From an uncultured Opitutia bacterium (GTDB lineage Bacteria > Verrucomicrobiota > Verrucomicrobiia > Opitutales > Opitutaceae), in contig CAIJZY010000007.1 of assembly GCA_903825285.1 (NCBI GenBank), forward strand, positions 124,001-188,000: a stretch of DNA of 64,000 nucleotides. Direction: 5' to 3'. Made by a program: the position numbers and the translations under genes. Positions 7,220 through 39,240 of the stretch are shown piece after piece. The notes under the pieces are model-generated. The model was given only the letters and a program-made list of their open reading frames with translations, searched no databases and was not told the DNA's origin. Numbering within the stretch: the stretch's first letter is position 1; each line of letters begins with the position of its first letter.

Positions 7220-7230
7220 GTTGGGAAAAA

Positions 7231-7312
7231 TTCGAAGCCCGAGGCACGAAATTCGAGGGAAGGATCAGGCGTCGGCAGAATTTCGGATTTCGTGCTGTGG
7301 CCTGCGAAATTC
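7231..7312. repeat. Imperfect inverted repeat with 7-nt phased CGA units, between murG and ftsW
   Basis: Left arm AATTCGA-AGCCCGA-GGCACGA-AATTCGA, right arm AATTTCG-GATTTCG-TGCTGTG-GCCTGCG-AAATTCT; core stem GCACGAAATTCG (7244-7255) / CGGATTTCGTGC (7284-7295), 12 bp with one G-T. Confidence 0.8.
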
Positions 7313-29006: not shown

Positions 29007-31511
29007 ATGAAAGCCCCAGCCGCCCCGGCCACCTCGCTCACGCTCGCCACGCCGCACCTCGCCTGGCATTTCCGCTGGGACGACGGGCGGCTGGCGTCCG
29101 AGCGATGGGAAAATCTCCCCCGCGGCCGGTCAGCGGCGCCCGTCGGCGGGCGCGAGCTGGCCCTGGTCTTCTCGGCGGCGCCGGACCGCATCGCGGAACC
29201 GCAGCTCCGGGTCGAGGACTTCGTCGTGCGCGCCATGCGTCGGCGCGGGCCGGCGGGCGCGGTGTTCACCCTGCACAGCGCCTCCGCCGACCTCACCGTC
29301 GCCCTGCACGTGCAGCTCGAGGGTCCGACCCGGCGCAAGTGGGTCGAGTTCACCTCCGCGGCGGATGGCGAGCGGCTGCTGCTCGATGTGGTGCTGGATG
29401 ACTTCGGCTTCACGGGCGCCGCGACCGGTGGCGGCGCGGGCCAGCCGGTGTACCTTGACGCCGAGGCCTTCGCCGCGATCGAGCATCCGTCGGGTGAGAA
29501 CCTCGCGGCCGATGGCCGCGTGCGGCTGGCGCACTACCCTGGCCGGCGGCTGGCGCCCGGCGCGCGGTTCCGCAGCCACGTCGCGCTCGTCAGTGTGGCG
29601 CCGGCCGGAGGCGCGCAGGCGCACTTCGTCGAATACCTCGAATCCAAGGCCCGGCCCCGCCCGGGCTTCATCGGCATCTACACGCCCTTCGGCATCAACA
29701 ACCAGTGGGGCGCGTGTCCCGCGCTCGACGACGAGCAGACGCTCGACGTGCTCGGCCACCTCGGGGAACTGCGGCGGCGCGGCGTGCGCTTCGACTACTT
29801 CACCCTCGACACCGGCTGGGTGGACCCGGCGTCGGACCTCACGCGGTTCAAGCCCACCGCCTTCCCCCGCGGCCCGGCCGAGGTGATCCGCCGCGTGCGG
29901 GGGCTGCACCTGAAGTTCGGCCTGTGGTTCGCGACCAGCTGGGGGCTGCAGTCGTGCTGGGACTATCCCGGCGCGTTCGCCGACGGGCTCCCGCCCGCGC
30001 AAGCCTACCGCGAGGGCTATCCGCCCGGGGCGGAAGGGCTGATGTTCTGCCTCGGCGAAAAGAGCTACCAGTCGATCCTCGGCCGCGCGGTGCTGCACCA
30101 CGTGCGGAAGAACGGCGTGAGTTTCCTGAAGTTCGACGGCGGCGCGTACCAGTGCGACAATCCCGCGCACGGTCACCTGCCGGGCAAGTACGCCACGGAG
30201 GCGATGCACGAGTGGCTGATCGACCTCGCGGACCGCGCCCGCGCGATCAACCCCGACGTGTTCATCATGTGGTACTGGGGCCTGCGCTCGCCCTTCTGGG
30301 TGCTGCACGGCGACGCGCTGTTCGAGTCGGGCCTGTTCATGGAGGGCTCGGGCACGAGCTCCTGGCCGACGCTGCACTACCGCGATTCCGTCACGCTCGC
30401 CCAGGACCAGAACGCGCACCACGCGCGGAACATCCCGCCGCGTTTCAAGGACAGCCTCGGCGTCTGGCTGTCCGACAGCCGCTGGGGCAATTTCATGGGC
30501 GGCGAGCGCTGGCGCGAGAGCCTGGTGATGGACCTTGGCCGCGGCAGCCGGCTCTTCCCCAACCTCTGGGGCAACCTGCGGCACCTGACCGACGACGACG
30601 TGAAGTTTCTCGCCGGGATCACCGCGCTCGCGCGGCGGCGCGCGGGGCTCTTCGCGCACCGCCGCCTCGTTGGGGGCGAGCCGTTCCGCAACGAGCCCTA
30701 CGGCTACGCCCACGGCCGCGGCGCGCGGAGCCTCGTCTGCCTGCACAACGCTCATTTCGCCGCGCGGCGGATCGACCTGCGGCTCGACGCGTCCCTCGGC
30801 CTCGATGCGCGGACCGGCACGCCGGTCCAGGTGCTCTCGCATTTCCCCGAGTCCCGCCAGCTGCGGCCCGCGGGCGGCGGACGCTTCCAGCTCGGCGAGC
30901 CGCTCGGGCTCTGGCTGCGGCCGTTCGAGACGCTCATGCTGGAGGTCACGCCGACGCTCGCCACGGGCGCGCGCCGCCCGCGCCGGGACCTCGGTGCCGC
31001 CGCGGCCAATGCGCTGGGCGTGGCCCTGGCCCTCCGCGACGTGCCGGCCGAGCCCCGGCTCGACGTGAAGTTCGCGGACGCGGCGCTGTTCGCCCAGAAG
31101 AACCTCGTCCGGAAAACCCGCACCTACGCCGCCACCCTGCCCCGCCTCGACGGCGACGTGCCGATGCTGGCGATCGTCCTCCGCCTCCGGCAGGGCGAGG
31201 CCGAGTGGAAATATGCGCCGACCGTCGTGCAGATCGTGCAGGCCGTGGCCCGCGTGGGCGACGTGAAGGTCCCGCTGATCCCGATGCCCGACGGCCGGCA
31301 GCACGGCAACACCCAGTCGTTCGGCTGCTCGTGGCTCGTGTACAAGGTCCGGCTCACTCCCGACTGGTCCGGCCAGACCCTGCAGTTCGCCATCCACGCC
31401 AACCTCCCCGAGAACGTCGAGGCGGTCGCCGAGGCCTGGGTCGTCAAGCGCTGGTGGCAGGAGAACCACCGCCCCACCGCCGACGGCTACTACACCTACG
31501 CGCCGTCCTGA
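29007..31511 (+). CDS. Alpha-galactosidase-like (GH36/GH27-clan) glycoside hydrolase
   Basis: RGVRFDYFTLDTGWVDPASDLTRFKP...LKFGLWFATSWG...GVSFLKFDGGAYQCDNPAHGHLPGKYATEAMHEWLIDLADRARAINPDVFIMWYWG. Confidence 0.7.
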   Translation: MKAPAAPATSLTLATPHLAWHFRWDDGRLASERWENLPRGRSAAPVGGRELALVFSAAPDRIAEPQLRVEDFVVRAMRRRGPAGAVFTLHSASADLTVALHVQLEGPTRRKWVEFTSAADGERLLLDVVLDDFGFTGAATGGGAGQPVYLDAEAFAAIEHPSGENLAADGRVRLAHYPGRRLAPGARFRSHVALVSVAPAGGAQAHFVEYLESKARPRPGFIGIYTPFGINNQWGACPALDDEQTLDVLGHLGELRRRGVRFDYFTLDTGWVDPASDLTRFKPTAFPRGPAEVIRRVRGLHLKFGLWFATSWGLQSCWDYPGAFADGLPPAQAYREGYPPGAEGLMFCLGEKSYQSILGRAVLHHVRKNGVSFLKFDGGAYQCDNPAHGHLPGKYATEAMHEWLIDLADRARAINPDVFIMWYWGLRSPFWVLHGDALFESGLFMEGSGTSSWPTLHYRDSVTLAQDQNAHHARNIPPRFKDSLGVWLSDSRWGNFMGGERWRESLVMDLGRGSRLFPNLWGNLRHLTDDDVKFLAGITALARRRAGLFAHRRLVGGEPFRNEPYGYAHGRGARSLVCLHNAHFAARRIDLRLDASLGLDARTGTPVQVLSHFPESRQLRPAGGGRFQLGEPLGLWLRPFETLMLEVTPTLATGARRPRRDLGAAAANALGVALALRDVPAEPRLDVKFADAALFAQKNLVRKTRTYAATLPRLDGDVPMLAIVLRLRQGEAEWKYAPTVVQIVQAVARVGDVKVPLIPMPDGRQHGNTQSFGCSWLVYKVRLTPDWSGQTLQFAIHANLPENVEAVAEAWVVKRWWQENHRPTADGYYTYAPS

Positions 31512-31518
31512 GCGCATG

Positions 31519-31608
31519 TTCACCACGAAGGACACGAAGCGCGCGAAGGGAAATCCTCCGGCCGGTGCCGGTCCTGACCTTCGCGCGCTTCGTGTCCTTC
31601 GTGGTGAA
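31519..31608. repeat. Perfect 31-bp inverted repeat built of 9-nt CGAAG units, between convergent genes
   Basis: TTCACCACGAAGGACACGAAGCGCGCGAAGG (31519-31549) and its exact reverse complement CCTTCGCGCGCTTCGTGTCCTTCGTGGTGAA (31578-31608), 28-nt spacer. Confidence 0.97.
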
Positions 31609-31619
31609 ATCCGTTCCGG

Positions 31620-32915
31620 CTAGGATGAGTGGGCCGGCGGTCCCGCAGTACCGCTGATGACCCGGGCGCCACGCCGGTAGGTGAAGTACGAGTAGGTCCA
31701 CTGGAGCAGGACGGAGAGCTTGTTCCGGAAGCCGATAAGGAACAGCAGGTGGACGCCGAGCCAGGCGATCCACGCGGGGAAGCCGCTGAACTTGAACCGT
31801 CCGATCTCCGCCACCGCCGCCGAGCGGCCGATGGTCGCCATGTTTCCCTTGTCCAAGTAGACAAACGGCTCGCGCTCGCCCCCGGCGGGACGCGCGCCGC
31901 CCAGCTCGCGGTCGATCAGCTTCGCCACAAACGCGCCGGCTTGGATCGCGCCCGGCGCGATGCCCGGGACCGTCACGCCGTGCGCGTCCACCAGGGAGAT
32001 GAGGTCGCCAATCGCGAACACCTCCGGGTGTCCCGGCACGCTGAGGTCGGGCCGCACCTTCACCCGGCCCGCGCGGTCGGATTCCATCCCCAGCTGCCGC
32101 GCCAACGGCACGGCCGCGACGCCGGCGCTCCACACGATGTTGTCGGACCGCAGCGTCTGCCCGCCCGCCACGACCTGTCCCGCGGAGATGGCCTCGACCC
32201 GCGTGGCGGTGCGCACCTCGACGCCGAGATGCTCGAGCTGACGCTGCGCGCTGGCCGAGAGCTCGGGCGGATAGGCGGCGAGGACGCGCGGGCTGCCCTC
32301 GAGGAGGATCACCCGCGCCTTCGAGGGGTCGATGTGGTCGAAGTCCCGATTAAGCACCGTGCGCGTGAGCTCCGCGAACGTGCCCGCCAGCTCCACGCCC
32401 GTCGGACCGCCGCCGATCACCACGATCGTCATTGCCGCGTCGCGCTTCGCGGGATCCGGCTCCGTCTCGGCCCGCTCGAACGAAAGCAGCACCCGGCGCC
32501 GGATCGCCAGCGCATCGTCGAGCGTCTTGAGCCCCGGCGCGAACTGCTCCCACTCCGGATGGCCGAAGTAGCTCGTCATCCCGCCCGCCGCCACCACGAG
32601 GTAATCGTAGGTCAGCTCGCCGCGCGCGTGGACGACCCGGCGCGCCACGAGGTCGAGGCCGGTGACCTCCGCCATGACCACCTCGAAGTCGGGCCGGTTG
32701 CCAAAGATCGCGCGGATCGGCTGCGCGATGTCCACGGCCGAGAGCCCGGCGGTGGCGACCTGGTAGAGCAGCGGCTGGAACAGGTGGTGATTCTGCCGAT
32801 CGATCAGCGTGATGCGCGCGCGGCCGACGGGAAACTTCTGGCAGAAGGTCAGCCCGCCAAAGCCCGCGCCGATCACGACGATGTGCGGAAGGGAAGCCGG
32901 ACGCCCATTGGTCAT
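31620..32915 (-). CDS. Type II NADH:quinone oxidoreductase (NDH-2-like FAD protein)
   Basis: HIVVIGAGFGGLTFCQKF...TLIDRQNHHLFQPLLYQVATAGLSAVDIAQPIR...VVIGGGPTGVELAGTFAEL...VFAIGDLISL. Confidence 0.92.
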   Translation of the reverse strand: MTNGRPASLPHIVVIGAGFGGLTFCQKFPVGRARITLIDRQNHHLFQPLLYQVATAGLSAVDIAQPIRAIFGNRPDFEVVMAEVTGLDLVARRVVHARGELTYDYLVVAAGGMTSYFGHPEWEQFAPGLKTLDDALAIRRRVLLSFERAETEPDPAKRDAAMTIVVIGGGPTGVELAGTFAELTRTVLNRDFDHIDPSKARVILLEGSPRVLAAYPPELSASAQRQLEHLGVEVRTATRVEAISAGQVVAGGQTLRSDNIVWSAGVAAVPLARQLGMESDRAGRVKVRPDLSVPGHPEVFAIGDLISLVDAHGVTVPGIAPGAIQAGAFVAKLIDRELGGARPAGGEREPFVYLDKGNMATIGRSAAVAEIGRFKFSGFPAWIAWLGVHLLFLIGFRNKLSVLLQWTYSYFTYRRGARVISGTAGPPAHSS

Positions 32916-33030
32916 GGCGGCACCGTGTTCAGACCCGGAAATTTTGCAACGGGCCCGGCCTCCCGCCACCCGTGACGCGCAATTTGCTGTTCACGGCCGG
33001 GCAAAGCACGTTAGTCCTCCGAACCTTCGC

Positions 33031-38942: not shown

Positions 38943-39011
38943 AGGGTTAGCGTAGTCTCGGCACCCCGTCCGCCGGAGCGCAAGCGCGGAGATGCAGGCG
39001 AGCGGTCCAGA

Positions 39012-39133
39012 CGAACATCGAATGTCGAACACCCAGCTCCCAACCTCGAACCTCGCTGCAGCCTCCCGCAGTGTGGCCACGTGCAGGAATCCACTTCGGC
39101 GTTGGACGTTGGGCGTTCGGCGTTCGATGTTCG
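39012..39133. repeat. Imperfect inverted repeat made of 7-nt phased CGAAC/CCAAC units, between lpxC-fabZ and efp
   Basis: Left arm CGAACAT-CGAATGT-CGAACAC-CCAGCTC-CCAACCT-CGAACCT (39012-39053); right arm CACTTCG-GCGTTGG-ACGTTGG-GCGTTCG-GCGTTCG-ATGTTCG (39092-39133), reverse-complementary heptad by heptad with wobbles and mismatches. Confidence 0.9.
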
Positions 39134-39240
39134 GATTGACCCCGGGCCCCTTCCCCACGCCCGGCCTTGACACCGCTGAGGGCGTTTCTTCTGCTGACCC
39201 CTTTCACACCGCAAAACCGCATCCCTTCGACCCTCCCGTC

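Follow-up and report, generated by a model that had tools for sequence, protein, structure and literature searches.

REP/BIME elements are short, high-copy intergenic palindromes which occur singly or as dimers, often behind genes, and which fall into GTAG- and CGTC-tagged families (PMC3733652). GTAG families are reported from Planctomycetes as well as from Opitutus terrae in the Verrucomicrobia, and the stems of REP sequences are mostly 6-9 bp in length (PMC3733652). Direct repeats of the heptamer TAACTGA form short intergenic arrays in Beggiatoaceae, Cyanobacteria and Bacteroidetes. These are patchily distributed across distant phyla, lie mostly just upstream of start codons and spread by a mechanism that is unknown (PMC4679880).

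The palindrome family described here, from an uncultured Opitutia bacterium, unites features of REP/BIME and of intergenic heptamer repeats. It shares with the former the single or dimeric palindromes behind genes, and with the latter the conserved heptamer in short arrays and the patchy occurrence across phyla. The arms differ from those of REP in being 25-31 bp long and in consisting of 9-nt units, each a conserved heptamer followed by two free bases. Unlike the TAACTGA repeats, the arrays are inverted, contain another heptamer and are found mostly behind stop codons. The STRR of heterocystous cyanobacteria are heptanucleotide tandem repeats with a pure 7-nt period and are not known to have a palindromic layout. 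Dispersal of heptanucleotide arrays through the genome is common to both. Similar to MITEs, the family is short, non-coding and bounded by terminal inverted repeats, whereas no parent transposon was found beside copies in 127 loci and no clear target duplication at the junctions compared. No paper printing the heptamer-array palindrome was found in an incomplete search of the literature.

The sequence-only reading of this DNA had offered a ‘REP/MITE-like element’ as one explanation. The REP-like part of this holds for behaviour: there are about 90 copies in the host genome, and the copies are, as REP sequences are, short extragenic palindromes. It does not hold for the features that define REP, as the end consensus carries neither a GTAG nor a CGTC tag and there is no linkage to RAYT. 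With a probability of roughly 0.6, the palindrome belongs to a non-autonomous, REP-like family of interspersed palindromes and has ended up as a 3′-end hairpin.

The window is the whole stretch of 64,000 nt that was analysed. The palindrome within it (Table 1) had been described as a perfect 31-bp inverted repeat with a 28-nt spacer, and an inverted-repeat search recovered it as the longest perfect repeat in the window with arms at most 200 nt apart (31 nt, 100% complementary). The strict 9-nt phasing of the units, also described earlier, is real and can be read directly from the arms. Two convergent stop codons are separated here by 108 nt, of which the palindrome makes up 90. The predicted RNA fold of positions 31505-31625 reaches -83.1 kcal/mol (z = -11.4), a value that none of the shuffled sequences equalled, and includes the proposed small spacer hairpin (CCGGC-CGGT-GCCGG). 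The convergent stops and the NDH-2 assignment of the right-hand gene were upheld, the latter by Pfam; the label ‘GH36-like’ for the left-hand gene found no support from Pfam, with no match at E<=1e-5. There were zero Rfam matches at gathering score anywhere in the window.

Table 1. Features of the palindrome locus (positions in the window).
Feature	Position	Strand	Description
Left convergent gene	29007..31511	+	‘GH36-like’ in the earlier description; stop 7 nt from palindrome
Left arm	31519..31549	+	Cap TTCAC, then three 9-nt units: CACGAAG-GA, CACGAAG-CG, CGCGAAG-G
Spacer	31550..31577	.	28 nt, with a small hairpin (CCGGC/GCCGG); full-length copies have a second heptamer-array pair here, B'/B, of CGCGAAG/CGCCAAG type
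Right arm	31578..31608	-	Exact reverse complement of left arm; identical GA and CG dinucleotides between heptamers
Right convergent gene, NDH-2 (type II NADH dehydrogenase)	31620..32969	-	Pfam Pyr_redox_2, NDH2_C; stop 11 nt from palindrome

The window palindrome is not unique. A genome-wide search in both orientations, of the kind proposed with the first description, gave 64+65 = 129 matches to the 21-mer TTCACCACGAAGGACACGAAG in the 3.74-Mb host genome (at most 3 mismatches) and 0 for the reversed control. The motif CCACGAAGNNCACGAAG was present in 71 of the 388 sampled genomes of the phylum, the genus of the host being the richest, and its reversed control was found almost never.

The repeat unit of the family is the heptamer CACGAAG (or CGCGAAG, CGCCAAG) with two nearly free bases, giving the 9-nt period. 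Arms are arrays of two to three units, up to four, capped by TTCACC or TTAACC, with TTCACC...GGTGAA as the outline of the whole and TTMACC/GGTKAA as the end consensus on both sides. Copies take the form of two facing arms, as in the window, or of a four-arm dimer of about 150 nt. Arrays of the three heptamers at 9-nt spacing were mapped in 67 loci of the host genome, the window included. Of the clusters, 17 have the order ‘+-+-’ and span roughly 140-165 nt, and a further 17 are of the simple ‘+-’ type of the window. The longer order runs from A (CACGAAG three times, cap TTCACC) through about 15 nt to B' (the CGCGAAG/CGCCAAG type, reversed), then after some 20-30 nt to B, and after about 15 nt to the reversed A'. 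For one such copy the fold prediction gives a single long nested hairpin (z = -14).

When one arm was used as the seed, identity of the partner arm in the host genome was 0.895 at the heptamers (n = 1365) and 0.596 at the free bases (n = 260); the values in three congeners were 0.849 and 0.464. Since the heptamers are kept while the free bases vary, the heptamer and its phase are conserved to a degree that base pairing would not explain. The free bases of facing arms nevertheless coincide more often than by chance (12/33 vs 5.3; 10/21 vs 2.6; in other phyla, 32/111 vs 15.3), which is to be expected if copies arise as palindromes.

Other phased arrays were noted alongside the family. At three loci (L134:2525-2665, L128 and L136), different 9-nt-phased words (CGCGGATNN, CGCGGAGNN) stand between the arms of a CACGAAG palindrome, as if palindromes insert into palindromes. 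A different, imperfect palindrome at 7228-7311 of the window, with CGAANNN-type units and a 7-nt period, fills almost all of a 93-nt intergenic gap. A third palindrome family is represented in a divergent gap at 38997-39148 by CGTTSGR units of 7-nt period, with 54-nt arms that are 74% complementary.

The genomic context was classified from gene calls made with a caller seeded with the window genes. All 87 classed clusters (of 89) are intergenic, the window copy among them, and of the 88 assessable copies 87 are intergenic. The one remaining is a possible intragenic copy, the heptamer array at L111:6767-6791, inside a long ORF which runs off its locus. Convergent junctions are enriched among the copies (28/87 vs 15/146 for gaps of 60 nt or more that lack an element, p=5e-5) and divergent junctions are depleted (13/87 vs 46/146, p=0.005). 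The median distance of copies from stops is 18-30 nt, and that from starts 88-137 nt. In other phyla, overlap with a long ORF was seen for 28 of 120 copies but for 84% of random positions.

Strict matches per genome in twelve congeners number 97, 57, 53, 25, 18, 11, 11, 8, 1, 0, 0 and 0. Eight orthologous junctions were compared across them, with flanks mostly 75-95% identical. Several congeners have short junctions with no element at S5 and S9, while at S2, S6, Sa, Sb and Sc the relatives hold a palindrome of the same type or of another family. At S6, G349 has a CACGAAG palindrome with other free bases. The relatives at S2 carry palindromes or arrays of CACGAAG, CACGAAA, CGCAAAG-like, CGAAATT-type or CAAG-type units. 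Behind the gene ending GVEVEWK (Sb), the host and G373 each carry a CACGAAG palindrome, G419, G414 and G060 have a CGAAA-type palindrome and G421 a CAGGAA-type one. Several species have CACGAAG-type arrays at Sa, and three of these also have a TGTCATTCTGA-type palindrome. The NDH-2 junction of the window holds a palindrome of the CACGAAG kind in the host, G060, G349 and G421, with a different left-hand gene in G349 and G421, and is roughly 29 nt long and free of hairpins in G373 and G419.

About 9 of 32 G349 elements lie at element sites of the host genome, against about 1 expected by chance, the exact count depending on which short matches are discounted (those of 115-121 nt, probably the element itself). 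Much of the pattern is therefore due to inheritance or to hot spots and not to recent movement. The copies as a whole show both inheritance and turnover. None of the compared junctions displayed a clean insertion flanked by an unambiguous target duplication. A possible ATGAA duplication was seen in G373 (L390), where every relative compared carries some palindrome or array. At one junction where other congeners have palindromes, G349 has two small ORFs (L418; G349 C9, ~199640-200180) which resemble by eye a HicA/HicB toxin-antitoxin pair.

The number of units at the NDH-2 junction is 3 in G349 and 2 in G421. Such gain or loss, together with the matched spacer bases of some copies, would fit an origin without transposition, in which slippage during replication and template switching (quasi-palindrome correction) build each palindrome on the spot. 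This explanation is very improbable, as it cannot yield one heptamer at dozens of unrelated sites in many phyla.

In the preferred interpretation, that of a dispersed REP-like palindrome, copies would spread via trans-acting machinery which recognises either the hairpin or the heptamers in their 9-nt phase. Insertions close to stop codons would be tolerated and perhaps targeted. Once in place, the hairpin may become the 3′ boundary of both transcripts, a role proposed for REP/BIME, by stopping exonucleases or preventing convergent read-through. With only 7 and 11 nt to the stops, the window palindrome is the only candidate 3′-end hairpin at its locus. Gene 3′ ends are probably the sites at which a mobile palindrome survives, and a secondary effect on 3′ ends or read-through is likely. 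Counting against this interpretation are the missing link to Y1 transposases or to a recurrent neighbour in the loci searched, the lack of a clean insertion at the compared junctions, the G349 sites shared with the host and, for a role at 3′ ends, the hairpin-free NDH-2 junctions of G373 and G419.

Alternatively, the hairpin may be a bidirectional terminator or mRNA 3′-end protector selected by the host and kept, whatever its origin, because convergent genes need one. The convergent enrichment and closeness to stops agree with this, and the ‘bidirectional terminator’ of the sequence-only reading stands as far as such placement is concerned. At S2 and Sb a strong hairpin (z about -4 to -12) persists in several congeners despite the change of family, and the NDH-2 junction retains its palindrome in the host, G060, G349 and G421 although the last two have a different left gene. 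The sequence around the stems speaks otherwise: the hairpin is G+C-rich and is not followed by a U-tract, T tends to precede the stems and A to come after them, and a terminator scan returned nothing at the site. An intrinsic (rho-independent) terminator was rejected for want of the U-tract. The hairpin-free NDH-2 junctions of G373 and G419, and those of several species at S5/S9, also count against a required hairpin, and identical placement would be expected if insertions elsewhere were simply harmful. Host selection for a 3′-end hairpin is possible, if on balance unlikely.

The enzyme that might move a REP-like palindrome was sought among RAYT-type proteins. A Y1_Tnp match is found in 280 of the 388 genomes of the phylum, comprising all 30 of those with at least 4 motif matches and 250 of the other 358 (Fisher p=6e-5, uncorrected for phylogeny and genome size). 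This association would suit a RAYT-mobilised REP/REPIN element, which is nonetheless extremely unlikely. G415 has 53 matches and no Y1_Tnp match at 95% completeness, G414 and G416 have Y1_Tnp and 0 palindrome matches, and none of 16 Y1_Tnp loci in 8 genomes has an array within about 1.5 kb; the GTAG tag is missing as well. RAYT as a present-day requirement for mobilisation was rejected on the first three of these grounds. An alternative source of mobility is a DDE-type transposon, unrecognised so far, of which the palindromes would be internal deletion derivatives (MITEs) with the heptamers as subterminal binding sites. The conserved inverted ends TTMACCACGAAGNN, the repeated subterminal motifs and nested palindromes such as that at L134:2525 fit this origin. 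It is unlikely, since a non-exhaustive search of 127 loci (other phyla and viral contigs) gave neither an autonomous element bounded by the palindrome ends nor a protein that recurs beside the copies, and no target duplication is clear.

A single 3-unit array beside a start codon (L139:2541-2565 / L374) is common to the host, G349 and G415. The host and G349 are identical there over all 25 nt, free bases included, with diverged flanks. This array would suit a protein-binding array, as would the heptamers that stay constant from phylum to phylum when the two bases between them do not. In such an array, also suggested in the sequence-only reading, a host protein (nucleoid, gyrase or post-transcriptional factor) sits on the 9-nt-phased heptamers in DNA or RNA. 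Such a role is rather doubtful. The patchiness of the family (71/388 genomes; 0-97 matches within the genus) ill suits a core regulator, and ten neighbouring proteins that were scanned have no function in common.

A whole-palindrome scan over 85,462 species genomes returned at least 116 stretches. Desulfobacterota/Deltaproteobacteria, Gammaproteobacteria, Planctomycetota, Chloroflexota, Acidobacteriota, Verrucomicrobia, Nitrospirae, Nitrospinota, Schekmanbacteria, Leptospiraceae and Bacillota are among the matches listed. CACGAAG-array palindromes are accordingly present in at least 10 bacterial phyla, a record of presence and not of prevalence, with taxa taken from record titles. The palindromes were read directly in the isolates Methylobacter marinus A45 (L220) and Thioalkalivibrio denitrificans ALJD (L198), and are therefore not a binning artefact. 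Plasmid and phage collections gave no convincing palindrome match, with one weak partial match on the plasmid side. Eleven IMG/VR contigs carry the palindrome (L258-L268); L261, L265 and L267 have many ORFs in common and may either form a single related group or stem from contamination by host DNA.

That one 9-nt-phased heptamer recurs in at least 10 phyla implies that a system for its recognition or mobilisation is widely shared, and that this system is not the known REP transposase. More speculatively, there may be a cross-phylum superfamily of short-period-array palindromes, each with a constant word and free bases, which are moved by novel machinery and replace one another at the 3′ ends of given genes. 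The 3′-end hairpins of bacteria would then be interchangeable mobile modules. Given the location behind stops and the exchange at orthologous junctions, congeners can be compared to test a long-standing question: whether a REP-like hairpin has a function at the 3′ end or has simply persisted there.

The translated strings FTTKDTK and ALRVLRGE, described earlier as recurring in environmental genomes, were found in the spurious minus-strand ORF 31444-32133. The suggestion that they mark a widespread family is borne out by the matches in the host genome, the phylum and many other phyla. The family explains why spurious ORFs of the FTTKDTK type keep turning up in environmental genomes, and it is probably through these ORFs that annotators already know the repeat.
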